Below are positions 578 to 15,114 of a stretch of DNA of 64,000 bases, in pieces. Positions within the stretch are counted from its first letter, which is position 1, and each line of letters begins with the position of its first letter. The stretch comes from Halobellus sp. MBLA0158 (lineage in GTDB: Archaea > Halobacteriota > Halobacteria > Halobacteriales > Haloferacaceae): assembly GCF_041477585.1 (NCBI RefSeq), contig NZ_JBGNYA010000001.1:2294001-2358000 (forward strand). Direction: 5' to 3'. The notes beneath the pieces were generated by a model. The model was not told the origin of the DNA. It searched no databases and saw only the letters and a program-made list of their open reading frames with translations. Made by a program: the position numbers and the translations under genes.

Positions 578-1819
578 CTACCAGGCCCGCTCCAGGATGG
601 CGACGATGGCTTCGGGAGTGGGATCGAGGCCGTCCGGCGCGACCGCCAGCAGGTCGTCGTCGTGAATCGCGGCCGCGACGTCGGGGAAGTCGGACTGATC
701 GACCCCGTCGATGTCGCGGAGGCGGTTCGGGAGCCCCAGGTCGTCGCGGACGCCCGCGACGGCCTGGATGACCGCGCCGGCGGTCGCCTCCGGACCGCCG
801 GTCGCGTCGACGCCGAGCGCCTCCGCCAGCAGGTCCCGGCGGCCGTCGATCTCGCTGAAGAGGTAGCGGAGGACGTGCGGCGCGACGACGCCGTGGATCG
901 TGCCCTGGTGGACGTCGTACCCGTGGGAGAAGCCGTGGCCGAAGGCGTGGATGATCGACGCGCGGTAGCCCTCGCGCCCCGCGAGCCCGTACTGGACGGC
1001 GACGATCCCCGAGAGCACCTCGCGGAGCCGCGCCTCGTTCATCGGCTCGGCGCGGAGCGTTCCCAGCCCCGACCGGAGTAGTCGAAGCCCGCGAGCGGCC
1101 GTGCCGTCCGTGATCGGCGTCGCGAGCGGCGAGTAGAGCGCCTCGATTCCCTTGTCGAAGCCGTTCATCGCCGACGCGGTGAGGACCGAGGTGGGCGTCG
1201 TCCGATACAGGTCGGAATCGTAGAACAGCGCCTCCGGCATCAGGCGCGGATCCGAGACGCCGCCGCTCGGCGGGCCCTCGCCGGAGGATCCGGCGTCCGC
1301 TCCGTCCAGTTCGGTGCCGCGGTCGAGCGTGAGCGTCACGCCCGCCAGATCCGAGAGGTCGGCGCCGGCCAGCGTAGTCGGCACGGCGACTATCGGGAGT
1401 GGCTCGCCCCCGTCCGAAACCGATAGATCTCCCGTCTCGATCGCCCGTTCGGCTGTCGCCCGGGCGTCGTCGTGTGACGACAGCGCACCAAGGACCTTTG
1501 CGACGTCGAGGGTGCTCCCGCCGCCGACCGCGACGGCGACGTCGACGTCGTGATCGCGGGCGGTCTCCAGCCCGTCGAGCGCCGTTCCCAGGGTCTTCTC
1601 GGGCGTCGTCTCGGGGAACTCCGCGACCAGTCGATCGCCGAGCCCCTCGCGGATCGGATCCACGACGGCGTCGGTCCGACCGACGGTCCTCCCGCTCACG
1701 AGCATCGCGCGGTCGTACCCCAGGCGGTCGAGTTCGTCGCCGAGGCGCGCGACGCAGCCCGCGCCGACGCGGATCGCGCCGGGGCGGAAGTCGAAGGTGA
1801 AGCCCTCGGTGGGTGTCAT
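578..1819 (-). CDS. iron-containing alcohol dehydrogenase family protein
   Basis: A 413-residue dehydroquinate synthase/iron-ADH fold protein. The nucleotide-binding AVAVGGGSTLDVAK lies in the N-terminal half. The C-terminal half carries the His-rich segment IIHAFGHGFSHG that usually supplies two metal-binding histidines. Family members oxidise alcohols or reduce aldehydes or ketones with NAD(P); the substrate here is unknown. Where typical members have D-A-x-x-H-x-x-E-A, this protein reads N-G-F-D-K-G-I-E-A, so two usual metal ligands appear changed to Asn and Lys, and the activity may not be classical. The ATG at 1819 is preferred to the upstream in-frame codons because homology to the family begins here and a GAGG-like motif precedes it. 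It is a stand-alone gene on the minus strand. Confidence 0.85.
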   Translation of the reverse strand: MTPTEGFTFDFRPGAIRVGAGCVARLGDELDRLGYDRAMLVSGRTVGRTDAVVDPIREGLGDRLVAEFPETTPEKTLGTALDGLETARDHDVDVAVAVGGGSTLDVAKVLGALSSHDDARATAERAIETGDLSVSDGGEPLPIVAVPTTLAGADLSDLAGVTLTLDRGTELDGADAGSSGEGPPSGGVSDPRLMPEALFYDSDLYRTTPTSVLTASAMNGFDKGIEALYSPLATPITDGTAARGLRLLRSGLGTLRAEPMNEARLREVLSGIVAVQYGLAGREGYRASIIHAFGHGFSHGYDVHQGTIHGVVAPHVLRYLFSEIDGRRDLLAEALGVDATGGPEATAGAVIQAVAGVRDDLGLPNRLRDIDGVDQSDFPDVAAAIHDDDLLAVAPDGLDPTPEAIVAILERAW

Positions 1820-1999
1820 AGCACCCTCTATGCCGGGATCCCCCAAAGGCCTACTCCCGCCACGGCGGCAGAATCCCACGGGCGAGAGTTTATGTCCGAA
1901 CACGGAACCAGGGCACGCGTGCGGTGACCATCGCCCCGCGCCGTCCGCGGTTGTCCGGCACAGCGACGCGGGGGCAGTTCGAGTGCCGGCTGTCCGCCC

Positions 2000-3257: not shown

Positions 3258-3321
3258 ACGGAGCAGGCCGGCGGGACGGGAGACCGAACCGCGTAAGTTC
3301 CCGAACCGACTCGGAGCGGGT

Positions 3322-4230
3322 ATGGAGGTCCTCGGCCGCCTGCTCGGGCTCCTCGTGCTCTTGTTCGCCGGGACGGGTCTCCGTCGGGTCGGGATCCTGG
3401 GCCCCACGCGCACCAGGCGGCTCAACGACCTCGCGTACTACGTCGCGCTCCCGGCGCTCGTCTTCGTCTCGACGTACGACCGGGCGATCGGGGACCTGCT
3501 CACGCCGGCGCTCGTCGCCGGTACCCTGGCGGTGCTCTTCGGGACCGCCGGCGTCGCGTGGCTGCTCCATCGGAACCGCGTCGATCGGGAGCGCCGGGGC
3601 GTCGCGATCGTCCAGTCCTATCACTCGAATCTGGGCTATCTCGGCCTGCCGCTCATCGCCGCGACGTTCAGCGGCGACGTCACCGCGGTCGCGAGCGTCG
3701 TCCTCGGCGTCGTCTCGCTGACGCAGGTCCCGCTGACGATCGCCGTCCTGACGGGGATCAACGGGGCCGGAGCGTCGATCGGCGACGAGCTGACGGAGCT
3801 GGTCCGGAACCCGGTGTTGCTGACGCTCGTGCTCGGGCTGACGGTCGGCTCGATCGGCGTCTCGGTGCCGGGCCCGCTGACCGTCGGCCTCGACGCGCTC
3901 GGGTCGCTGGCGCTCCCGCTCGCGTTGCTGTGCGTCGGCGCGTCGCTCCAGTTCGAGCTCCCCGACGGCGACCTCGGGACGAGCGCGGCGGTCGTCGCCC
4001 TGAAGATGGCGTGGATGCCGGCGCTGGCCTGGGCCGTGTTTTCCACGCTGGATGTCGGCGCCGCCGCGTTCACCGCCGCGGTCGTGATGCTCGGGATGCC
4101 GACGGCCGTCTCGACGTACGTGTTCGCGAACGAACTCGGCGGCGACCCCGAGTTCGCGTCGCTGAACGTCTTCCTGACCACTCTCGCTTCGGTCGGGACG
4201 CTGTTCGTGCTCATTCAGACCGTCGGGTGA
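3322..4230 (+). CDS. AEC family (auxin efflux carrier-like) transporter
   Basis: A 302-residue integral membrane protein with roughly ten hydrophobic segments in two halves, separated by the hydrophilic stretch around GASIGDELTELVRNP. Features typical of the AEC/malate permease family are the N-terminal LNDLAYYVALPALVF, the NLGYLGLPL segment after the first half, LPLALLCVGASL, and the closing GMPTAVSTYVFANEL. AEC proteins are secondary carriers that export or exchange organic anions; the substrate cannot be read from sequence. The start ATG at 3322 is the first codon before the hydrophobic N-terminus. Divergent from the 3225 gene. Its stop is followed by a 78-bp repeat that fills most of the space to the next, convergent gene. 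Confidence 0.88.
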   Translation: MEVLGRLLGLLVLLFAGTGLRRVGILGPTRTRRLNDLAYYVALPALVFVSTYDRAIGDLLTPALVAGTLAVLFGTAGVAWLLHRNRVDRERRGVAIVQSYHSNLGYLGLPLIAATFSGDVTAVASVVLGVVSLTQVPLTIAVLTGINGAGASIGDELTELVRNPVLLTLVLGLTVGSIGVSVPGPLTVGLDALGSLALPLALLCVGASLQFELPDGDLGTSAAVVALKMAWMPALAWAVFSTLDVGAAAFTAAVVMLGMPTAVSTYVFANELGGDPEFASLNVFLTTLASVGTLFVLIQTVG

Positions 4231-4250: not shown

Positions 4251-4328
4251 AGTGATTACTCTCGTCGCTTCCTGCCGAACGCCGTCACCGGGGGTGGCGG
4301 CGGTAAACAGTGAGAGTCATCACTATCA
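4251..4328 (-). repeat. 78-bp dispersed repeat, copy A
   Basis: Read on the minus strand from 4328, this segment matches 22250-22327 (plus strand) at 71 of 78 positions with no gaps. Its two ends are imperfect inverted repeats (AGTGATTACTCTC at 4251-4263 and GAGAGTCATCACT at 4312-4324, 12 of 13 complementary). A central hairpin (10-base arms with one mismatch around CCC) lies between them. The minus-strand end starts TGATAGTGA, whose first triplet is the stop codon of the phosphatidyltransferase gene. Size, terminal inverted repeats and dispersion resemble a MITE or small palindromic mobile element; a role as a shared bidirectional terminator is the alternative. Confidence 0.85.
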
Positions 4329-5159
4329 GTCGTCGCCCCGCGGGAGTCGCCCGGAGACGGCGAGGTAGTCGCGGACGAACACCGCGAGGGACGGCGCGAG
4401 CACGAGCGCCGCCAGCGGTCGGATCGCCGACAGGGACAGGACCGGCGCGAGGGCGAACGCGATGAACGCCATCTGGAGCCCGGCGAGCGGTCGCCGCAGG
4501 CGGCTCGGCGGGAGGTCGTAGACGGGCTTGCCGCGACGCCGACGGAGCCCGCGGCCCAGTTTGAACAAGTAGCGCGCCGCCGAGAGCGACAGGTACCAGA
4601 CCGGGAGCTGTCCCCAGAGCACGGCGACGACGGGCGCGACGAGGAAGCCGGTGGTGTCGATCGCGAGGTCCAGTTTCGCGCCGAGCTCCGTCGTACGGTC
4701 GCGGCGGCGCGCCAGGAATCCGTCGACGGCGTCCAGCGCACACCCCGCGCCGTAGAGGATCGCCGGCGCCCACGCGACCGCGGGCGTCGGCGCGAGCAGT
4801 CCGAAGCCCGCGACGCCGGCGAACAGCGCGCCGCGGACGAGCGTCACGAGGTTCGGAAGCCCGAGCGACGCGTACGCGTCGGCGGGGGTCGCGGCGGCCT
4901 CGGCGGAGCGTTCCGGGCGATTCGCGTCCAGCCGGCGATACGTGAACGTCGCCTCGAACGCGAGGACGGTGAAGGCGGCCGCGAGCCAGCGGACGGTGGG
5001 CGACCGCGGCAGCACGCCGAAGTCGATCCCGATGGGGTCGGTCGGAGCGAGTGCGGGGCCGAGAGCGGCGGCGCCGCCCAGGGTCGAGAGCGCGAGGAGG
5101 GCGACCGCGGCGGCCCACTCGCGCCGGAGCGCCCGCGGCACTCGGTCGGCGGCGGTCAC
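4326..5159 (-). CDS. CDP-alcohol phosphatidyltransferase family membrane protein
   Basis: A 277-residue membrane protein. It contains the complete CDP-alcohol phosphatidyltransferase signature D-x2-D-G-x2-A-R-x8-G-x3-D-x3-D from about residue 140 (DAVDGFLAR, then G, D and D at the right spacing). These enzymes transfer a phosphoalcohol from a CDP-alcohol to a second alcohol in phospholipid synthesis. The acceptor (glycerol phosphate, inositol phosphate, serine) is not identifiable. Several hydrophobic segments flank the motif, and the N-terminal 90 residues are an extra region with two hydrophobic stretches. The GTG start at 5159 overlaps the stop of the upstream fusion gene as GTGA, indicating co-transcription and translational coupling. 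Its stop codon forms the end of repeat copy A. Confidence 0.88.
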   Translation of the reverse strand: MTAADRVPRALRREWAAAVALLALSTLGGAAALGPALAPTDPIGIDFGVLPRSPTVRWLAAAFTVLAFEATFTYRRLDANRPERSAEAAATPADAYASLGLPNLVTLVRGALFAGVAGFGLLAPTPAVAWAPAILYGAGCALDAVDGFLARRRDRTTELGAKLDLAIDTTGFLVAPVVAVLWGQLPVWYLSLSAARYLFKLGRGLRRRRGKPVYDLPPSRLRRPLAGLQMAFIAFALAPVLSLSAIRPLAALVLAPSLAVFVRDYLAVSGRLPRGDD

Positions 5160-7168
5160 CGTTCGAACCCCGGGTCGGCGAGCGTCGCCAGCCGCTCGCG
5201 GTCCGCTTCGGTGAGGCGGAGTCGCGCGGCCGCGAGGTTGTCGACGACGTGGTCGGGATCGTTGCTGGCCGGGATGGGTACGACGCCGCGGTCGACATGG
5301 AACGCGAGCGCCGCGGCGGCCGGCGAGGCCTCGTGGGCGTCGGCGACGGCCGCCAGCGCGGGCTCGTCGAGCAGGCCCGGCGCCGACAGCGGCGAGTGCG
5401 CGAGCACGCGGATCCCACGGGCGTGGCACGCCTCGATCAGTTCGGTCCGGGGGAGATAGGGATGGGACTCGATCTGCACGATCGCGGGCGGCACGCGCGC
5501 CGATTCGAGGATCGTCTCCAGGTCCGACAGCGAGACGTTGCAGACGCCCAGCGTCCGCGTCAGCCCGCGGTCGACGAGCCGCTCCATCCGCGCCCACGTC
5601 TCGGCGAGCGGCACGTCGACGGCGTCGGGATCGCCGTCGGCGTCGGTCGGGAAGGTGAGCGCCTCCTGCTCGTCCGGCGGACGCTCGGCGAGCGCCCGGA
5701 GCGGACCCTGATAGCGCCAGGCGTCGGGCCAGTGGAGCAGGTACGAATCGAGGGCGTCGACGCCGAGTTCCGCGAGCGTGCCCTCGCAGGCCTCGGCGAC
5801 GTGCTCGTGGTTCGTGTTCCAGACCTTGCTGAGCAGGAAGAGGCCCTCGCGGTCCGGCGCGCCGGGCGAATCGAGCAGGTCGCCGATCCGCGCCTCGTTG
5901 CCGTAGAGCTCCGCGGAGTCGAGGAGTCTGTAGCCGGCGTCCAGCGCCGTCGCGATCGAGTCGATGCGCTCGACGTAGTCGCCGTCGCGGTAGCGCGAGC
6001 AGCCGAAGCCGATCGGCGGGAGCCGGAGCGCCGCGTCACGGCCGGGGGAACCGACGCCGCGCACGACCGATTCGACGGATCGATCGGCGTCTTCGAGCGG
6101 ACGGACGGGCGGTGGCGAGCGCTCGGTCTCCAGCGCGGCCCGCGTCGAGTCGTCCGTGTCGACGCCGACTGACTCGCCCGTCTCTGCGGCGCGTTCGATC
6201 GCGTTACAGACGGCGACGACGTGGGCGGCGCGTCGCGCGCCCGCGGTCGTCGGCCCGTCGGCCGCGACGCGCTCTGCGAGCCGTTCCGGCCCGGCGAGGT
6301 AGGCGCGTCGGCGTCGCGGGGCCGGATAGGGTGCCGAGACGTAGGGCCTGCCGGCGCCGCCGACGGCGACGGTGTCGCGGTCGGCCGCGAGCGCGCCGCT
6401 GTCGGCGAGGTAGAGCGAGCCGTCGTCGCCGTGGAGTTCGAGGCTGTTGAACTCCCGGCTCCGGTGGGGGGCATAGAGGCTCGCGGTCAGCCGGACGACG
6501 GGACCGGTCTCGAAGGCGAGCGTCGCCTCGACGTGCGCGGGACGCTCGGGCCGTCGGTTCTCGCGCGCGGGCCAGACGTCGAGCGCGTCCGCGGTCCGAA
6601 CGCGATCGACGGGGCCGAACCACGTGACAAGGAGATTCAGCGGGTACACCGCGCCGTCGTACAGCGGACCGACCGCGAGGAACGATTCCGGCGAGTTGTG
6701 CCACTCGGTCACGCGGCCCACGTGAGCGTGGGCGTAGCCGAGGCGGATCGGCCCGAGGCGGCCGTCGCCGAGGAGCCACCGCGCGTGTCGTTGGGCGTCG
6801 CAGCGGTGATTGATCGGCGCACAGCCGAGCGCGAGACCGCGTCGCTCGGCCGTCTCGACGAGGGCGAACGCGCGGTCGGCGTCCAAGGCCAGCGGCTTCT
6901 CGCTGAAGACGTGCCGATCGCGAGAGAGGCACGCCTCGGTGACGTCCGCGTGAGCGGCGTGGCTCGTGAGGTTCGCGACGAGCGGCGCGGCCTCGGCGTC
7001 CAGCAGCGCGTCGAGGTCGTCGTAGGCGGCCGCGTCGTACGAGTCGGCGAGGCGCTCGGCGCGCTCCGCGTCGAGATCGCAGACGGCGGTCAGTTCGAGC
7101 GGGGACGCGTCGAGACCGGCGGCGTACTTCTCGGCCACCGCGCCCGCGCCGACGAACGCGCACTCCAT
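5156..7168 (-). CDS. two-domain fusion: Gfo/Idh/MocA oxidoreductase + aldo/keto reductase
   Basis: A 670-residue protein joining two unrelated NAD(P)-dependent reductases. Residues 1 to about 340 form a Gfo/Idh/MocA dehydrogenase with a Rossmann start (AFVGAGAVAEKYA) and the FSEKPLAL motif containing the conserved Lys. After a linker, about residue 380 onward is an aldo/keto reductase with its Asp-Tyr-Lys-His tetrad: LLDSAELYGNE, LLSKVW and SYLLHWPD. Both types act on sugars, polyols or related carbonyls, so the fusion may carry out two linked oxidation/reduction steps or channel an intermediate (inference). ATG 7168 is chosen because the Rossmann strand begins immediately after it. GTGA overlap with the phosphatidyltransferase gene; divergent from the GT4 gene. 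Confidence 0.88.
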   Translation of the reverse strand: MECAFVGAGAVAEKYAAGLDASPLELTAVCDLDAERAERLADSYDAAAYDDLDALLDAEAAPLVANLTSHAAHADVTEACLSRDRHVFSEKPLALDADRAFALVETAERRGLALGCAPINHRCDAQRHARWLLGDGRLGPIRLGYAHAHVGRVTEWHNSPESFLAVGPLYDGAVYPLNLLVTWFGPVDRVRTADALDVWPARENRRPERPAHVEATLAFETGPVVRLTASLYAPHRSREFNSLELHGDDGSLYLADSGALAADRDTVAVGGAGRPYVSAPYPAPRRRRAYLAGPERLAERVAADGPTTAGARRAAHVVAVCNAIERAAETGESVGVDTDDSTRAALETERSPPPVRPLEDADRSVESVVRGVGSPGRDAALRLPPIGFGCSRYRDGDYVERIDSIATALDAGYRLLDSAELYGNEARIGDLLDSPGAPDREGLFLLSKVWNTNHEHVAEACEGTLAELGVDALDSYLLHWPDAWRYQGPLRALAERPPDEQEALTFPTDADGDPDAVDVPLAETWARMERLVDRGLTRTLGVCNVSLSDLETILESARVPPAIVQIESHPYLPRTELIEACHARGIRVLAHSPLSAPGLLDEPALAAVADAHEASPAAAALAFHVDRGVVPIPASNDPDHVVDNLAAARLRLTEADRERLATLADPGFER

Positions 7169-7262: not shown

Positions 7263-8390
7263 ATGGCGCGCGTGGCCGTCCTCCACAACACCCTCGACCT
7301 CCAGGGCGGCGCCGACGTGGTCTGTCTGTCGACCTGCGCGGCCCTCCAGGACGACCACGACGTGACGCTGTACACGCTGTCGACGACCGATCCGGCGGCA
7401 CTGGCCGAGCGGTTCGACATCGGTCTCGATCCCGCGGGGCTTTCGGTCCGGTCGCCGCGGGGCGGGAGCACGGCCGCGCGAGCGCTCTCCGCGGCGACGC
7501 CCGTGTTCGGACCGCAACTCCCCTTCCGGACCGTCCTCGTCCGTGCGATCTTCGAGCGCGAGGCCGACCGCTACGACCTGGCGGTGAGCACCGCGAACGA
7601 GGTGTCGCTGTCGCTTCCGTCTGTACAGTACGTCCACTATCCGCAGTTCCGCGGGCACCGATCGGGCGAGGCCGACGGAGACGGCGACGCCGGCAGACTG
7701 AACCGCCTGTGGAGTCGGCTGGCGGCCCCGACCGACGGCGATCTGAAATCGACGACGCTGCTCGCGAACTCCGCGTGGACCGCGGGCGTCGTCGAGCGGC
7801 GCTACGGCGTCGAACCGACCGTCGTCCACCCGCCGGTCGCGCCGATCGAGGGCGGCCGCCCGTGGCAGGAGCGGGAGAACGGCATCGTCGTGGTGGGGCG
7901 ACTCGCGCCGGACAAGCGGATCCTCGATGCGGTCGAGATCGTCGACGGCCTCCGAGATCGGGGCCACGACGTCCACCTCCACGTGGTCGGCGCCGCACCG
8001 CCGGCGTACCGACAGTACGTCCGAAGGGTCGAGTCGGCGGCCGGGGAGCGCTCGTACGTCGCCGTCGAGACCGACGTCCCGCGATCGCGGATCGAGGAGT
8101 TGCTCCGGACGCACCGCTACGGCCTGAACTGTAAGCCCGACGAGCACTTCGGGCTCTCGGTGGCCGAATACGTCGCGGGCGGGATGATCGCGTTCGCGCC
8201 CGACGGCGGGGGTCAGCGCGACGTCCTCGACGGTCGCGACGATCGGCTGTTCGCCGGGACGAGCGAGGCGATCGATCTCGTTTCGGCCGCCATCGAGGAG
8301 GGGCATCGACCGCGGCTCGCCACCGACCGGTTCGCCCCGGAGCGCTTCCGGGACGCGCTCGGCAGCGCCGTCGAGCGGGCACTACATTGA
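7263..8390 (+). CDS. family 4 glycosyltransferase
   Basis: A 375-residue GT-B fold glycosyltransferase of family GT4 type. The N-terminal domain starts with ARVAVLHNTLDLQGGADVV, matching the Gly-rich acceptor-side loop. The C-terminal domain has the retaining-type strand ENGIVVVGRLAPDKRILD and the E-x7-E nucleotide-sugar motif (Glu294 and Glu302 in DEHFGLSVAEY). It should transfer a sugar from a nucleotide donor to a lipid, protein or glycan at the inner face of the membrane; donor and acceptor are unknown. No transmembrane helix is seen. It is not embedded in a wider glycan cluster, though the divergent fusion gene could act on sugars. ATG 7263 precedes the first Rossmann strand. Confidence 0.88.
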   Translation: MARVAVLHNTLDLQGGADVVCLSTCAALQDDHDVTLYTLSTTDPAALAERFDIGLDPAGLSVRSPRGGSTAARALSAATPVFGPQLPFRTVLVRAIFEREADRYDLAVSTANEVSLSLPSVQYVHYPQFRGHRSGEADGDGDAGRLNRLWSRLAAPTDGDLKSTTLLANSAWTAGVVERRYGVEPTVVHPPVAPIEGGRPWQERENGIVVVGRLAPDKRILDAVEIVDGLRDRGHDVHLHVVGAAPPAYRQYVRRVESAAGERSYVAVETDVPRSRIEELLRTHRYGLNCKPDEHFGLSVAEYVAGGMIAFAPDGGGQRDVLDGRDDRLFAGTSEAIDLVSAAIEEGHRPRLATDRFAPERFRDALGSAVERALH

Positions 8391-8416
8391 AGTCGAACTG
8401 TGTCCATTGCGAACGT

Positions 8417-8794
8417 ATGGCAACGAGCACGTCGACCGGCGGAACCCTCCGAACGGAGTCGCTCTCGGGACTGCACTGGCTCGGCATCGCGCTGGCGGCC
8501 GTCACCGGCGTGCTGCACCTCGCGCTGGGGGTCAGCTTCGTCGCCGGATCGCTCGGGAGCGGCCTGGGCTGGGCGTTCATCGTCGCCGGCGTCGGCTTCC
8601 TCGGCGGGATCGCCGCGATCCTCCTGGACTACCGACGGCGGCTCGTGTACCTCCTGGGAATTCCGTTTACGGCCGGACAGATCGTGATCTGGTACGTCGT
8701 CAACGCGCCGGACTTCTCGCCGCCGGGGATCGGGGATAAAATCGTCCAAGTGCTGTTCGTCGCCGTGCTGATCGTCCTGTATCGACGATCGTAG
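8417..8794 (+). CDS. small four-helix membrane protein
   Basis: A 125-residue hydrophobic protein with four likely transmembrane helices (starting near LHWLGIALAAVTG, LGWAFIVAGVGFLGG, LVYLLGIPFTAGQ and KIVQVLFVAVLIV) and a short polar N-terminus. No catalytic motif is visible and I cannot assign a family. ATG 8417 is chosen over an upstream in-frame codon because the extra residues overlap the end of the GT4 gene and are not hydrophobic. It lies 26 bases after the GT4 stop on the same strand and could share its transcript. It converges on aIF-1A. Confidence 0.7.
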   Translation: MATSTSTGGTLRTESLSGLHWLGIALAAVTGVLHLALGVSFVAGSLGSGLGWAFIVAGVGFLGGIAAILLDYRRRLVYLLGIPFTAGQIVIWYVVNAPDFSPPGIGDKIVQVLFVAVLIVLYRRS

Positions 8795-9753: not shown

Positions 9754-11286
9754 TTACTCGTCGGCGCGGGATTCGAGCTTGTAGCGCTCGATCTTCCCGC
9801 TCGGGTTGCGCGGGAGTCCGTCGACGAAGCGGTACTCCCGCGGTCGCTTGTAGTCCGCGAGGTCGTCGCTGTCGCGACACCACTGGTCTAGTTCCGTCTC
9901 GGTCACGTCGCCGCTGCGTTCGACGAACGCCACAACGATCTCGCCCCACTCCTCGTCGGGGTGCCCGACGACGCCGGCGTCCGCGACATCGGGGTGGGTG
10001 AGGAGGACGTCTTCGACCTCCGTGGGGTGGATGTTCTCGCCCCCGCTGATGATCATATCGTCGACGCGCCCGGTGATGACGATCCGGTTCTCCTCGGTTC
10101 GGCGCGCCGCATCGCCCGTGTACAGCCACCCCTCGTGGATGGCTTCCTCGGTGGCCTCGGGCTTGTTCCAGTAGCCGTCGAAGGCCACCGGCGAGTCCGT
10201 GTTGACGATGAGTTCGCCCTGGGTACCCGGTTCGACCGTGTCCGCGGGATCGTCGCTCTCGACCGCGACGACGCGCGTTTCGAGGCCGACGTTCGCGGGG
10301 CCGGTCACGGTCGGGTCGCGGATGTCCTGGAGGTCGATGTACGCGAGCGTCCCGTAGACTTCGGTCGTCCCGTAGAGGTTCGCGATGTGATCCGGGTCGA
10401 ACGTCTCGATCGTCCGCTCGAAGACGGACTGGCTCATCGGTGCCCCGGAGTAGCCGATCGTATCGACCGAGGAGATGTCGACCTCCTCGATCGCGTCGGT
10501 GTCGAGCATATTCGCGAAGATGGTCGGTGCCTCGTGGAGCGCCGTGACCCCGTAGTCCTCGATGGCGCGGACGGCGATCTCGGGGTCGAACTCCGACATA
10601 CAGAGGTAGGTGCCGCTCATCGAGAGCAGGCCGCAGAGGATGCCGTGGAGGCCGACGGTGTGGTACAGCGGCATAATCCCGATCATCGTCTCCTCAAGGT
10701 AGTAGTGCTGGCCGAGAGAATTGATGATCCACCGCGAGGACGTCGAGTCTTGGTCGATCGGGATCCCCTTCGGATCGCCGGTCGTCCCCGAACTGTACAG
10801 CATCACGCTCGGGTCGTCGTAGTCGATGTCGACGTCGGGCTTCTCGGCCGAGGCGTCGGCGAAGTCCGCGAACGGCTCCGCGAAGTCGGGCGCGTCGTCG
10901 CCGACGTACACCATCGGGACGTCGATGTCGTCTGCGACCGACGTGACCGCCTCGCGGGAAATCTCATCGAAGAGGAACAGTTCGGGATCGGAGTCCTCAA
11001 TGTGATACCGCACGCCGCTGGCGGCCAAGCGGAAATTGAACGGGACGGCGACGATGCCGGCCAGCTGGGTGGCGACGAACGTCACGACGTGCTCGGGCCG
11101 GTTCGCCATACAGATCGCCACTCGATCCCCCGGGTCGAGTCCCCGGTCGCGGAGCGCGGTGGCGAGACGGTAGGCGCGAGTCTGGAGTTCGGTATAGGTC
11201 AGCTCGGACCCGTCGTTCAGGTGGGCTATCGCGGTCCGGTCGGGCGTCCGGGCGACCGATTGCTCGAACGTGAGAGGGAACAACAT
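9754..11286 (-). CDS. AMP-forming acyl/aryl-CoA ligase
   Basis: A 510-residue member of the adenylate-forming (ANL) superfamily. It has the phosphate-binding loop YSSGTTGDPKG near residue 163, the NLYGTTEVYG segment, WLYTGD, the hinge region (GRVDDMIISGGENIHPTEVE) and a C-terminal PSGKIERYKL with the catalytic lysine (Lys498). It should activate a carboxylic acid with ATP and transfer it to CoA. The acid is unknown; the neighbouring LigM-like protein suggests an aromatic acid (inference). ATG 11286 has a TATA-like element 26-38 bases upstream, so the mRNA is probably near-leaderless. It is transcribed away from the IclR gene, its likely regulator. Confidence 0.9.
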   Translation of the reverse strand: MLFPLTFEQSVARTPDRTAIAHLNDGSELTYTELQTRAYRLATALRDRGLDPGDRVAICMANRPEHVVTFVATQLAGIVAVPFNFRLAASGVRYHIEDSDPELFLFDEISREAVTSVADDIDVPMVYVGDDAPDFAEPFADFADASAEKPDVDIDYDDPSVMLYSSGTTGDPKGIPIDQDSTSSRWIINSLGQHYYLEETMIGIMPLYHTVGLHGILCGLLSMSGTYLCMSEFDPEIAVRAIEDYGVTALHEAPTIFANMLDTDAIEEVDISSVDTIGYSGAPMSQSVFERTIETFDPDHIANLYGTTEVYGTLAYIDLQDIRDPTVTGPANVGLETRVVAVESDDPADTVEPGTQGELIVNTDSPVAFDGYWNKPEATEEAIHEGWLYTGDAARRTEENRIVITGRVDDMIISGGENIHPTEVEDVLLTHPDVADAGVVGHPDEEWGEIVVAFVERSGDVTETELDQWCRDSDDLADYKRPREYRFVDGLPRNPSGKIERYKLESRADE

Positions 11287-11311
11287 ACGCTACGATCTAT
11301 TCGAACAGATG

Positions 11312-11324
11312 CTAATAATTTTTC
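11312..11324 (-). promoter_or_regulatory. TATA-like promoter of the first CoA ligase
   Basis: The minus strand reads GGAAAAATTATTA-like A/T-rich sequence about 26-38 bp upstream of the ATG at 11286, within the short gap to the IclR gene. Confidence 0.5.
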
Positions 11325-11378
11325 CTCTGTGAACGGCGTCGGTGCGTAGGAGGCTGAACGCCGCCGAGCCGGGCGGGC

Positions 11379-12134
11379 TCAGTAGTAACGGTAATTGACG
11401 GCGATCTCCTCGGCGGCCGCGCGGACGTTCCGGATCAGGTCCTCCCGGTAGTCGTCCTGTTCGAGGCGGCCCGTTGGACACGCGACGGAGACGCTGCCGA
11501 GCAGTTCGCCGTCTTCGATCACTGGACAGGCGACGAAGCCGATGCCGACGACCTGTTCCTCCCGATCGATGGCGTAGCCTTCGTCGTTGATCGCGTCGAG
11601 TTCTGTCCGGAGTACGTCGGGATCGGTGACCGTGTGTTCGGTCACGGCTTCGAGTTCGTCGACGTCGAGCAGTTCGTCGACGCGCTCGTCGGGGAGGTGT
11701 GCGAGCAGAACCTTTCCGGCGGCGTGAGAGTGGATCGGCGTCCGGAAGCCGGGGTAGGTCCCGGTCTGGACGGAGGTGAGGTCGCCCTCTTCGTGGAGCA
11801 TCACCCACTCGCCGTCTTCCTCCTGGCCGAGCTGGGCGAGTTCGTCGGACTGCTCGGAGAGCTTCCGGAGGACCACGTCCGAAGAGTGGAAGAATCGGTT
11901 GCGATACTTGAGCAGGCTCCCGCGTTCGAGGAAGCGGTAACCGATCCGGTACCGTCCCGCCTCCCTGACGACGAAGCCCGTGGCTTCGAGCGAGACGAGG
12001 TAGTCGTGGGCGGTGCTCCGATTGACGCCCATCAGCTCCGCGATCTCCGCGGGGCCGGCCTCCCGTTCGCGCTCCAGCAGGTCGAGGACCTCGAACGCCC
12101 GCGCGACCGTCTGGAGTGGGACGTCGGATGTCAC
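11379..12134 (-). CDS. IclR-family transcriptional regulator
   Basis: A 251-residue regulator. Residues 1 to about 70 form the N-terminal winged helix (TVARAFEVLDLLERE, then AEIAELMGVNRSTAHDYLVS as the helix-turn-helix). The rest is the GAF-like effector domain of the IclR family, with HSHAAGKVLLAHLPDE and a GIGFVACPVIEDGELLGSVS core. IclR proteins commonly control catabolic operons for aromatic or other organic acids by binding a pathway metabolite. The position between the ligase gene and the divergent LigM-like gene suggests it controls both directions (inference). The start is a GTG at 12134, as the family's usual N-terminus begins just after it. Confidence 0.93.
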   Translation of the reverse strand: MTSDVPLQTVARAFEVLDLLEREREAGPAEIAELMGVNRSTAHDYLVSLEATGFVVREAGRYRIGYRFLERGSLLKYRNRFFHSSDVVLRKLSEQSDELAQLGQEEDGEWVMLHEEGDLTSVQTGTYPGFRTPIHSHAAGKVLLAHLPDERVDELLDVDELEAVTEHTVTDPDVLRTELDAINDEGYAIDREEQVVGIGFVACPVIEDGELLGSVSVACPTGRLEQDDYREDLIRNVRAAAEEIAVNYRYY

Positions 12135-12240
12135 AGGTACACGTCCGTCGCGGTCGGTATGAAACTCTGTCGCTCGGTGGGACCGCGACGAACCGGCGCC
12201 GCGGCGATTCTCCGACGGACTGTCGTCGAGTCCGAGAAAG

Positions 12241-12250
12241 TTTTAAATAA
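12241..12250 (+). promoter_or_regulatory. TATA box of the LigM-like gene
   Basis: TTTTAAATAA preceded by the purine-rich BRE-like GAGAAAG. It would place the transcript start near 12270-12275, favouring ATG 12282 over the in-frame ATG at 12255, which would lie upstream of the RNA start. Confidence 0.6.
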
Positions 12251-12281
12251 TATTATGTGGAAGTTAGCGCCAGGCAGCACT

Positions 12282-13667
12282 ATGACAGAGAGCCTCGAAG
12301 ACGCGCTTCAGCAAGCCGACAGTCCCGTCGATTTCGTTCGCTCCCCCGCCCGAGGGGCCGATACCGGCCACCTCCGCCTGTTCACGGACCTACCCGACGA
12401 GGTGACGAACTGGCGCGAAGAGCAGTCCGCGTGGGCCGACAGCGTCGCGCTGGCGGACCTCTCGCACCATATGACGGACCTCTACGTCGAGGGCCCCGAC
12501 GCGCTCGACCTGTTCGCGGATCTCGGAATCAACGACTTCTCGTCGTTCGAGCCGGGGCAGGCCAAGCAGTTCGCCGCGACCAGTCCCGACGGGTACCTGA
12601 TCGGCGACGGGATCCTCTTCCACCTCGGCGAGGATGAGTTCAATCTGGTCGGCTACGGCCCGATCAACTGGGTCGAATTCCACGCCGAGACCGGCGACTA
12701 CGATGTCGCGACCGAGCGCGACGAACACGGCGGCCTGCGCGAGGGGCCGCCGAAGACGTTCCGCTATCAGGTCCAGGGGCCCGACGCCCTCGACCTTATC
12801 AAGGACGTCGTCGACGGCGACCTCCCCGATGTGCCGTTCTTCAACTTCCGTCCGGTCTCGATCGCCGGCCACGAGATCAACGCCTTGCGCCACGGAATGC
12901 TGAACGAGCCCGGCTTCGAGTTCTTCGGCCCCTGGGAGCACGCCGAGGACGTTCGCACCGCCATTATGGAGACGGGGCGAGACTACGACATCCGCCGGAT
13001 CGGCTCGAAGGCCTACCCGACGAACGTGATCACGGCGGCGTGGATGTCGATCCCGCTGCCGGCCATCTACCACGACCACGAGCTCTTAGAGGAGTACCGC
13101 GAGTGGCTCGACGTGAACAGCTTCGAGGGCGCACTCGCCATCGGCGGCAGCCTCGATTCCGAAGACATCACCGACCACTACCTGACGCCGGTCGAGGCGG
13201 GTCACGGTCGCTTCGTCGATCTCGATCACGACTTCGTCGGCCGCGACGCGGTGGCGGAACAGCTCAAGCAGAAAGAGCGGACCCGCGTCACCCTCGTGTG
13301 GGACCAGGCGGCCACGACGGACCTGTACGGCGGGGCGCTCTTCGACGACGACGCCACCTACCGCTACACCGACCTCCCGGTCGCCGACTGGGCGCTGACC
13401 CAGAACGACAAAGTCCTGAAAGACGGCGACGTCGTCGGGATCGCGAACAACACCCGCTACCTCTACTTCGAGCGGCGGATGTTCTCTCTGTGTGCCATCG
13501 ACGAGGAGTACGCCGAGCCCGGGACGGAGGTCTCGATCCTCTGGGGCGAGCCCGACTCCGGTAACCCCCGCGTCGAGGACCACGAACAGACCGAAGTCAC
13601 CGCGACCGTCGCGCCGGCCCCGTACTTCGAGGACAAGCGAAAGACCGCGGACTACAACGCCGACTGA
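12282..13667 (+). CDS. LigM/DesA-like tetrahydrofolate-dependent O-demethylase (GcvT fold)
   Basis: A 461-residue aminomethyltransferase (GcvT-fold) protein. From memory, the pattern of conserved blocks matches the vanillate/3-O-methylgallate O-demethylase LigM of sphingomonads rather than glycine-cleavage T protein: TNWREEQSAW, LSHHMTDLYVEG, IGDGILFHL, FFNFRPVSIAGHEI, LRHGMLNEPG, GSKAYPTN, PLPAIY and the late FVDLDHDFVGRDA. The length is also that of LigM (about 470) rather than GcvT or DmdA (about 370). LigM moves an aryl O-methyl group to tetrahydrofolate, giving 5-methyl-THF. Flanking CoA ligases, an IclR regulator and a binding protein support a catabolic role. The actual methyl donor is untested; another methylated carboxylate is possible. 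Confidence 0.8.
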   Translation: MTESLEDALQQADSPVDFVRSPARGADTGHLRLFTDLPDEVTNWREEQSAWADSVALADLSHHMTDLYVEGPDALDLFADLGINDFSSFEPGQAKQFAATSPDGYLIGDGILFHLGEDEFNLVGYGPINWVEFHAETGDYDVATERDEHGGLREGPPKTFRYQVQGPDALDLIKDVVDGDLPDVPFFNFRPVSIAGHEINALRHGMLNEPGFEFFGPWEHAEDVRTAIMETGRDYDIRRIGSKAYPTNVITAAWMSIPLPAIYHDHELLEEYREWLDVNSFEGALAIGGSLDSEDITDHYLTPVEAGHGRFVDLDHDFVGRDAVAEQLKQKERTRVTLVWDQAATTDLYGGALFDDDATYRYTDLPVADWALTQNDKVLKDGDVVGIANNTRYLYFERRMFSLCAIDEEYAEPGTEVSILWGEPDSGNPRVEDHEQTEVTATVAPAPYFEDKRKTADYNAD

Positions 13668-13770
13668 GCACTCGACCACGCGCGGTCGGTCACGAGCCGC
13701 CTCGGCGGGGCACCCCCGCCGCAGCCGCCGTTCCGGACGATGACTCCGACCCGTAACGTGAGCTACAGAA

Positions 13771-13780
13771 AAATTTATAA
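13771..13780 (+). promoter_or_regulatory. TATA box of the binding-protein gene
   Basis: AAATTTATAA lies about 35 bp upstream of the ATG at 13810. An AGGAG at 13794-13798 could serve as ribosome-binding site, spaced 11 bases from ATG 13810 or 5 from the alternative GTG 13804. Confidence 0.55.
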
Positions 13781-13809
13781 CATTCTTTCACAAAGGAGAG
13801 TCCGTGCCG

Positions 13810-15114
13810 ATGAGTAACAGACGACAATTTATCACAGCCGCCGGGACGGGCGCGGTCGCGCTCGTCACGGGCTGTCTCGGATCGGGCGGCGACGGCGACA
13901 GCACCGATTCGGGAACCACCGACAGCGGGGGTAGCACGACGACGATGGGTTCGAGCGGGAGCGACGAGCCGATCACCATCGCGGCGACGGTCTCGCGGAC
14001 GGGGTCGTTCTCGAGCGCGGGCGAGGACGTCGAGACCGCCTACCGGCTGGGCGAACAGTTGATCAACGACAACGGCGGCATCCTCGGCCGCGACGTCGAC
14101 GTCATCATCCGAGACGACGAGAGCGACCCGCAGAAGGTCCGCGAGTCGCTGCAGACGATCCTCGACAACAACGACGTGGATATGATCTGGGGGACGTTCG
14201 GCAGCCTGCTCGTCGGGGCGGCAGCGTCGATCGCAGAGCGCGAGGGGCTCCCGATGCTGAGTGCGAACTTCGCGTATATGGAGCCACACCTCAACAACAA
14301 CTACCAGTGGACGTTCGCGCCCTTCCCGAAGAGCCGCGATATGGCCAACGGCGCGGTGAAGCTCGCGAACCTCGCGCCGGAGGACAACAGGCCGGTGAAC
14401 GTCGGCATCTGGCAGACGAACACCGGCTGGGGCGCCGAACTCGGCCGCGTCTGGTCCGAGGCCCTGGAGGCGAACGGCCACGAGGTCGTCGTCAACGAGA
14501 AGTTCCAGATCGGCGCCTCGGACTTCTCGACGCTCATCTCGCAGGCCAAGAGCGCCAACGTGGAGTACCTCCTCACGAACCCCGCGCCGGGCGGCGGGAT
14601 CACGATGGTGAACCAGATGCAGGAAAACAGCTTCAATCCGAAGCTCGCGACGATCGAGCGCGCGGCGACGATCACGACCTGGCTGGACGCGACCGGCGTC
14701 GCGGGGCTCTACACCAACTCCACGCCGGGATGGGTCCCCGGACTGACGGGCGGCGGGAATCAGCGGATGCTGGAGGCCTTCCGGGCGCAAGACGACGTCG
14801 CGGCCGACGCCTACCCGGCGCCGACGGTCGGCGGCTCGTACAACGTCACCCAGACCGCGAAGCAGGCCATCGAGGCCGCGGGGTCGGTCGAGCCCGAAGC
14901 CGTCCGCGACACGCTCCTCGACACGGAGTTCCGAACGGTCCTCGGTTCGTTCCGGTTCGACGAGAACGGGATGCCCGTCGAGGGCGACCTCGCACCGCCG
15001 ATGGGCCAGTGGCAGGACGGCCTGCTCCGACTGGTCATCCCCTCGGACGTCGACAGCGAGGCCTCGACCGACATCGAGTATCCGGCGCCGGCGTACGGCG
15101 ACCGCTCGATGTGA
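13810..15114 (+). CDS. ABC substrate-binding lipoprotein, Leu/Ile/Val- or urea/amide-type
   Basis: A 434-residue periplasmic-binding-fold protein (Peripla_BP_6 type). The N-terminus is a Tat lipoprotein signal: RRQF at residues 4-7 and a lipobox ending at Cys22 (LVTGC), followed by a Ser/Thr/Gly-rich linker typical of haloarchaeal surface lipoproteins. The mature part begins ITIAATVSRTGSFSSAGEDV and continues with GILGRDVDVIIRDDESDP, matching branched-chain amino acid/amide receptors. It should capture a small organic acid or amide outside the membrane. No permease or ATPase gene is adjacent, so it must work with a transporter encoded elsewhere or act as a receptor. ATG 13810 is preferred because the Tat motif then sits at the usual distance; GTG 13804 is possible. 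Confidence 0.9.
   Translation: MSNRRQFITAAGTGAVALVTGCLGSGGDGDSTDSGTTDSGGSTTTMGSSGSDEPITIAATVSRTGSFSSAGEDVETAYRLGEQLINDNGGILGRDVDVIIRDDESDPQKVRESLQTILDNNDVDMIWGTFGSLLVGAAASIAEREGLPMLSANFAYMEPHLNNNYQWTFAPFPKSRDMANGAVKLANLAPEDNRPVNVGIWQTNTGWGAELGRVWSEALEANGHEVVVNEKFQIGASDFSTLISQAKSANVEYLLTNPAPGGGITMVNQMQENSFNPKLATIERAATITTWLDATGVAGLYTNSTPGWVPGLTGGGNQRMLEAFRAQDDVAADAYPAPTVGGSYNVTQTAKQAIEAAGSVEPEAVRDTLLDTEFRTVLGSFRFDENGMPVEGDLAPPMGQWQDGLLRLVIPSDVDSEASTDIEYPAPAYGDRSM

Follow-up and report, generated by a model that had tools for sequence, protein, structure and literature searches.

A two-reductase fusion of haloarchaea and the conserved gene set around its CDP-alcohol phosphatidyltransferase

What does a protein do that joins a Gfo/Idh/MocA dehydrogenase to an aldo/keto reductase (AKR), and how is it related to the CDP-alcohol phosphatidyltransferase encoded directly behind it? 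The question is raised by a gene of Halobellus sp. MBLA0158, located at 7168..5156 on the minus strand of the 64,000-nucleotide stretch analysed here (the window; contig NZ_JBGNYA010000001.1, positions 2,294,001 to 2,358,000). Judged from sequence, the fusion architecture is a real, conserved and functionally linked haloarchaeal family. Our reading, to which we give about an even chance (roughly 50%), is that the fusion is a bifunctional NAD(P)-dependent oxidoreductase whose target is the sugar or polyol portion of some intermediate, within a pathway that awaits characterisation.

The gene is a single frame of 670 amino acids (aa) with a terminal stop only; a missed stop between the domains was looked for in this frame, and none was found. 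Pfam assigned aa 2–114 to GFO_IDH_MocA (PF01408, 2.4e-22, 80.3 bits versus a gathering score of 24), with Gfo C-terminal domains extending to aa 335, and aa 385–662 to Aldo_ket_red (PF00248, 5.9e-42, 144.2 bits versus 24). Translation and Pfam thus bear out an earlier note on this DNA, which had described the two enzymes as encoded in one frame. The N-terminal half (aa 1–345, 6134..7168, minus strand) belongs to the Gfo/Idh/MocA family by its Rossmann score, GxGxxA (aa 7–12), the lysine of EKP (aa 90–92) and the C-terminal Asp and Tyr. The C-terminal half (aa 380–670 and the stop codon, 5156..6031, minus strand) belongs to the AKRs by score and by the Asp-Tyr-Lys-His tetrad.

Among 391 haloarchaeal genomes, 107 matched the fusion at E≤1e-30, and 106 remained after removal of one genome matching the Gfo half only (G196). 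Counted among the 106 are a stop-containing fragment (G110), two genes split across contigs (G044 and G278) and four genes with a degenerate AKR half. They are spread over several families of Halobacteria. All genome co-occurrence and locus counts given here ignore kinship. As the architecture is conserved across haloarchaeal genomes, a missed stop or frame error is very unlikely. In a sample of 392 genomes of the phylum (make-up by order unstated), all 23 matches, including that of the window, fell into the window's order. Of the public plasmid records, 1305 matched; five covered at least 80% of the query, all of them haloarchaeal. Phage records gave 49 matches, none covering 80% of the fusion. 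On plasmids, four annotated full-length copies carry only the label aldo/keto reductase. A literature search, mostly without subscription journals, found no description of the fusion or of the gene cluster among the titles and passages listed.

Residue conservation was assessed for the window and 68 loci selected by alignment score. After dropping near-copies (≥97% identity) and two loci with a broken frame (L101 and L105), 60 non-redundant homologues remained, two of which begin late. In the Gfo half K91, D171 and Y175, and in the AKR half D417, Y422, K448 and H479, were each invariant (60/60). The catalytic roles of the three Gfo residues are presumed from the motif, and the position that we take to be that of the usual catalytic His, assigned in the same way, is a Tyr here (YDGAVYP). 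The motifs of both halves had been called intact: this holds for the two active sites, but the EKP glutamate is replaced by Gln in 20 of the 60 homologues. The linker (aa 346–379, 6032..6133, minus strand) is poorly conserved, with a mean identity to the window of 21% over aa 346–376 versus 67–68% within the domains.

An AlphaFold2 model built from 31 sequences showed two mostly confident domains, with a mean predicted local distance difference test (pLDDT) score of 85.5 and a predicted template modelling (pTM) score of 0.85. Between them, pLDDT falls below 50 at aa 360–379 and is about 40 at aa 361–380. The closest folds to the modelled Gfo half were levoglucosan dehydrogenase (Z 34.4, root-mean-square deviation (rmsd) 3.0, 330 residues aligned), glucose-fructose oxidoreductase (GFOR; Z 34.3, rmsd 2.8, 334 aligned) and aldose-aldose oxidoreductase (Z 33.2, rmsd 2.7, 320 aligned). 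The AKR half matched celery mannose-6-phosphate reductase (Z 33.1, rmsd 1.9, 276 aligned) and peach aldose-6-phosphate reductase (Z 33.0, rmsd 2.0, 276 aligned). Aldose, aldehyde and steroid reductases tie with these sugar-phosphate reductases, which makes the substrate class of the AKR half ambiguous. Two named Gfo-type enzymes were rejected by score: inositol 2-dehydrogenase IolG (TIGR04380, 52.4 bits versus a cut-off of 355) and the haloarchaeal xylose dehydrogenase Gfo6 (NF041392, 39.4 bits versus 350).

The phosphatidyltransferase (277 aa, 4326..5159, minus strand) starts with a GTG (5159–5157) that overlaps the TGA of the fusion (5158–5156), giving GTGA; this overlap, read in the earlier note as translational coupling, may link the translation of the two genes. 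It is a member of its superfamily by PF01066 (4.8e-16, 60 bits versus 22, in a scan of a slightly longer stretch) and by the motif DxxDGxxARx8GxxxDxxxD, which was present in 72 of 73 homologous frames. At E≤1e-20, a phosphatidyltransferase match was found in 222 of the 391 genomes and in all 106 fusion genomes. Among 105 relatives, 99 have it behind the fusion, with the same orientation and at most 1.7 kb away: within 30 bases in 19, within 300 in 29 more and within 1,700 in another 51 (distances between aligned stretches, not gene ends). In the six exceptions it is on another contig (G252 and G339), 4 kb upstream (G190 and G279), a megabase away (G237) or without a listed place (G303). The expected linkage is strongly conserved, though one locus (L077), weighed below, shows no phosphatidyltransferase within 10 kb downstream.

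The enzyme scored far below the cut-off of each of seven listed NCBIfam models; for archaetidylinositol phosphate (AIP) synthase, NF040950 gave 28.3 bits versus 180. Two Haloferax CDP-alcohol phosphatidyltransferases, HVO_1136 and HVO_1971, are tabled in PMC8305020 with distant or unclear support. Inositol-phosphate synthase (PF07994) had no match in the window's genome, which is 99.46% complete; as controls, five genomes including Haloferax volcanii matched, three of them above the cut-off. Inositol is thus unlikely in the window's genome. The earlier note had suggested a polyol or inositol-like lipid headgroup as the product. The inositol part found no support, with the IolG and AIP synthase models far below cut-off and PF07994 without a match; a polyol-type substrate fits both folds, and the lipid idea is plausible in outline.

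Around the fusion, the phosphatidyltransferase is not the only conserved gene. Searches with seed sequences in the window and in 41 named loci with fetched flanks (n=42; 7 Halobellus, 35 other) found the phosphatidyltransferase in 40, a GT4-type glycosyltransferase in 41 and a small DUF7475 protein in 39. A BchC-like dehydrogenase of the medium-chain dehydrogenase/reductase (MDR) type was present in 34, a 6-pyruvoyltetrahydropterin synthase (PTPS)-like protein in 32, an S-adenosylmethionine (SAM) methyltransferase in 32, a sulfatase-like protein (weak match) in 25 and GTP cyclohydrolase III in 13. In the window, the GT4 gene (7263..8390, plus strand; Pfam) is divergent from the fusion, and the DUF7475 gene (8387..8794, plus strand, exact start unsettled; Pfam) follows; in relatives, the latter adjoins the fusion or sits between fusion and phosphatidyltransferase. 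The MDR dehydrogenase, PTPS and methyltransferase all lay within the fetched flanks at 31 of the 35 non-Halobellus loci. At the seven Halobellus loci, only fusion, phosphatidyltransferase, GT4 and DUF7475 of this set stay together. The other three genes form one unit about 240 kb from the fusion in the window's genome, and in Halobellus limi they are elsewhere on the same megaplasmid as the fusion. A PTPS match was found in 234 of the 391 genomes overall and in 105 of the 106 fusion genomes. The context first described, a phosphatidyltransferase alone, named a partner that is conserved but overlooked this larger gene set.

These results bear on the view taken initially, in which an ordinary archaeal phospholipid owes its headgroup, inositol-like or another simple polyol, to the fusion, and the rest of the cluster lies nearby without any functional relation. 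The tight phosphatidyltransferase linkage and the sugar-enzyme folds agree with it, as do the reduced Halobellus loci and five genomes in which the phosphatidyltransferase persists without PTPS. However, the models for IolG and AIP synthase, the missing PF07994 match and PTPS in nearly every fusion genome speak against it, and we consider it unlikely.

The PTPS-like protein itself calls for an identity. Public records name it 6-carboxytetrahydropterin synthase, and it is the sole PTPS-family match in the window's genome; it could thus be the archaeosine enzyme QueD, with a cluster that merely resembles one pathway. Against this, the Halocatena copy scored 41.9 bits versus a QueD cut-off of 89.25, and the CxxxHGH of QueD was absent from all 48 haloarchaeal copies. 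The motif stretch holds no cysteine in 47 of the 48 (the 48th has one elsewhere), and HSH closes it in 47. The PTPS-like protein was present in 59 of 97 sampled genomes. A strong QueC match was found in 38 of these 59, and 36 of the 38 carry at least two PTPS matches; the 21 without a strong QueC match have one PTPS each. The single PTPS-family match in the window's genome is of the type without a strong QueC match. QueD (PTPS-I) was rejected by score, by the missing cysteine motif and by the QueC pattern, and we regard this identity as highly improbable. In PMC5041015, PTPS-I is given as CxxxHGH, PTPS-II as CxxxxxHGH and PTPS-III as ExxHGH, and the function of PTPS-V as unclear. The haloarchaeal protein fits none of the first three cleanly.

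Its closest solved relative is the PTPS homologue SCO6650 of Streptomyces (3d7j), which we take to be without a zinc site and without PTPS activity. Two actinobacterial plasmids carry the dehydrogenase-PTPS-GT4 core. On the Streptomyces globisporus plasmid (L144:7800-16000), the phosphatidyltransferase (opposite strand), MDR dehydrogenase, PTPS, GT4 and methyltransferase are followed by genes for an LPG_synthase_TM protein, RibD_C, a creatininase and GTP cyclohydrolase II; of these, the methyltransferase and the LPG_synthase_TM protein only just exceed their cut-offs. The Arthrobacter plasmid has dehydrogenase, PTPS and GT4. No Gfo-AKR relative was seen in the two plasmid loci. The riboflavin-type genes beside the Streptomyces PTPS suggest a GTP-derived precursor. 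A creatininase-family gene (L146:12920-13678) is also located near the fusion cluster on pNG700 of Haloarcula marismortui, as beside the Streptomyces PTPS cluster.

Such a precursor would allow another role for the fusion. Like the finishing reductase of tetrahydrobiopterin, it could have as its target, instead of a free sugar, the side chain of a pterin or pyrimidine that derives from GTP and is formed with the help of the PTPS-like protein. Some AKRs reduce pyruvoyl-pterins. The near-constant co-occurrence with PTPS, GTP cyclohydrolase III at 13 of the 42 loci and the GTP cyclohydrolase II, creatininase and RibD_C genes in Streptomyces are in line with this. By fold, however, the Gfo half is closest to sugar enzymes, and many genomes as well as both bacterial plasmid loci have the PTPS core but no fusion, which makes a side-chain role doubtful.

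At some loci, one of the two domains has decayed or is missing. The AKR half is degenerate in four genomes, three of one genus (G124, G173 and G345) and one of another family (G367; loci L129, L130, L131 and L132). All four have lost D417, Y422, K448 and H479 and retained the Gfo residues. They hold 47 of 51 core-invariant Gfo columns versus 6 of 64 AKR columns, and none of the three members scanned gave a Pfam AKR match. In a midpoint-rooted tree, the four form one clade (support 100/96). The degenerate half remains in frame with the Gfo half, and in the Haloarcula copy it was predicted as a folded alpha/beta domain with confidence gaps, from an alignment that included active homologues. The reverse arrangement occurs in Halorubrum laminariae (L108:9785-11044), where the AKR half is kept and the Gfo half is missing along with a portion of the sulfatase-like gene next to it; either a deletion or a misassembly could explain the gap.

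Both arrangements, together with the unconserved linker and its low model confidence, would suit two independent activities on different substrates, fused only for co-expression. On the other hand, Halobacteria of several families have retained the fusion, and the AKR half, even where it is dead, stays in frame and is predicted to fold. We regard full independence as somewhat unlikely. The dead but retained domain offers a naturally occurring test of the second domain's contribution.

Several observations weigh against a bifunctional enzyme at the heart of a single pathway. To judge by sequence, the AKR step is dispensable in the degenerate clade. More than half of the phosphatidyltransferase genomes (116 of 222) are without the fusion. 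Twenty of the 116 were fetched and mapped: near the phosphatidyltransferase, a methyltransferase was found in 17, a dehydrogenase in 11 and PTPS in 9, and no Gfo or AKR relative of the fusion was found in the fetched stretch. As the core stands in genomes without the fusion, it does not need it, and the fusion is an optional part. Weak phosphatidyltransferase matches may also be paralogues. Five genomes keep the phosphatidyltransferase without PTPS, and in the three of them that were mapped (G110, G267 and G301) it is still beside DUF7475. A Salinirussus metagenome-assembled genome (L077:6010-16010) has the fusion and the PTPS cluster, but over 10 kb downstream not even a threshold of E 0.01 brought up a phosphatidyltransferase. 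The GTP cyclohydrolase III at haloarchaeal loci may simply serve riboflavin; deletion of HVO_1284, which encodes this enzyme, is described in PMC8305020 as leading to riboflavin auxotrophy.

Some of these loci deserve a closer description. G110 has no PTPS match, and its fusion is reduced to an AKR fragment with a stop. There (L133:6047-9403), a piece of GTP cyclohydrolase III adjoins the AKR fragment, followed by DUF7475, the phosphatidyltransferase and two further genes; what relatives carry between the cyclohydrolase and the fusion is missing. The map fits one deletion from GTP cyclohydrolase III into the fusion, so the double loss may be one event and is weak evidence. G267 and G301 (L125 and L126) keep DUF7475, the phosphatidyltransferase and a membrane protein gene, with no PTPS, dehydrogenase, methyltransferase or fusion nearby. 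At L077, a DUF7475 match is also missing downstream of the fusion. At L107, the other locus without a phosphatidyltransferase, the contig ends inside the fusion.

Taken together, the conserved gene set probably builds an unusual phosphate-linked molecule, which is perhaps lipid-bound. Our best reading of the product is a glycosylated, methylated and phosphodiester-linked compound, with the fusion as an optional part of its pathway. The core would consist of the CDP-alcohol phosphatidyltransferase, the BchC-like MDR dehydrogenase, the PTPS-like protein, the GT4 glycosyltransferase and the SAM methyltransferase. Most likely, the Gfo half would oxidise a hydroxyl via K91, D171 and Y175, and the AKR half would reduce a carbonyl to an alcohol via Y422 with K448, H479 and D417. 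Together, they could isomerise a sugar or reduce it to a polyol, which the phosphatidyltransferase would couple via a phosphodiester bond to a CDP-activated molecule, probably CDP-archaeol. The sugar or polyol substrate, the order of the two steps, the coupling of the domains and the lipid-linked product are inferred.

A bolder and quite tentative extension is an undescribed pathway common to haloarchaea and some actinobacteria. Its starting material, a ribityl-pyrimidine that derives from GTP and is an early precursor of the riboflavin type, would pass through a PTPS-like enzyme without the usual cysteine, the BchC-like dehydrogenase, the glycosyltransferase and the methyltransferase, and a CDP-alcohol phosphotransferase would then attach it to a lipid. 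The result would be a membrane-anchored pterin- or flavin-like molecule, with the Gfo-AKR fusion as a haloarchaeal elaboration remodelling its polyol.

Neither the fusion nor the pathway can be recognised from the plain aldo/keto reductase annotation. Through the co-occurrence, an archaeal phosphatidyltransferase and a PTPS subgroup, both without an assigned role, become open to study in genera like Haloarcula and Halorubrum, of which some are genetically tractable. What is most useful here is the larger pathway, as yet uncharacterised, and an AKR step that can be dispensed with.

Further genes of the window were recorded beside this set. An Fe-type alcohol dehydrogenase (578-1903, minus strand) and a Mem_trans transporter (3271-4230, plus strand) are found beside the fusion only in the seven Halobellus loci among the 42 mapped. 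At 9754-15114, an AMP-binding enzyme, an IclR regulator, a GcvT-like aminomethyltransferase and a periplasmic-type binding protein follow one another and may form a unit for demethylation or catabolism.

Compared with known systems, aa 1–348 of the fusion have the fold of levoglucosan dehydrogenase, GFOR and aldose-aldose oxidoreductase (Z 33–34), and the EKP lysine and the C-terminal-domain Asp and Tyr are common to all. These enzymes differ in that identity in the structural alignment is 18–21% and that the fusion adds an AKR. The mannose-6-phosphate and aldose-6-phosphate reductases (7s5f and 7s5i) have the barrel of aa 379–670 (Z 33, 34% identity) with the full tetrad, but are plant enzymes without a Gfo half. 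PgsA and the PIP and AIP synthases have PF01066 and the full catalytic motif in common with the window's phosphatidyltransferase. The PTPS copies of the two bacterial plasmid loci read HGA, whereas the archaeal copies, in 47 of 48 cases, read HSH.

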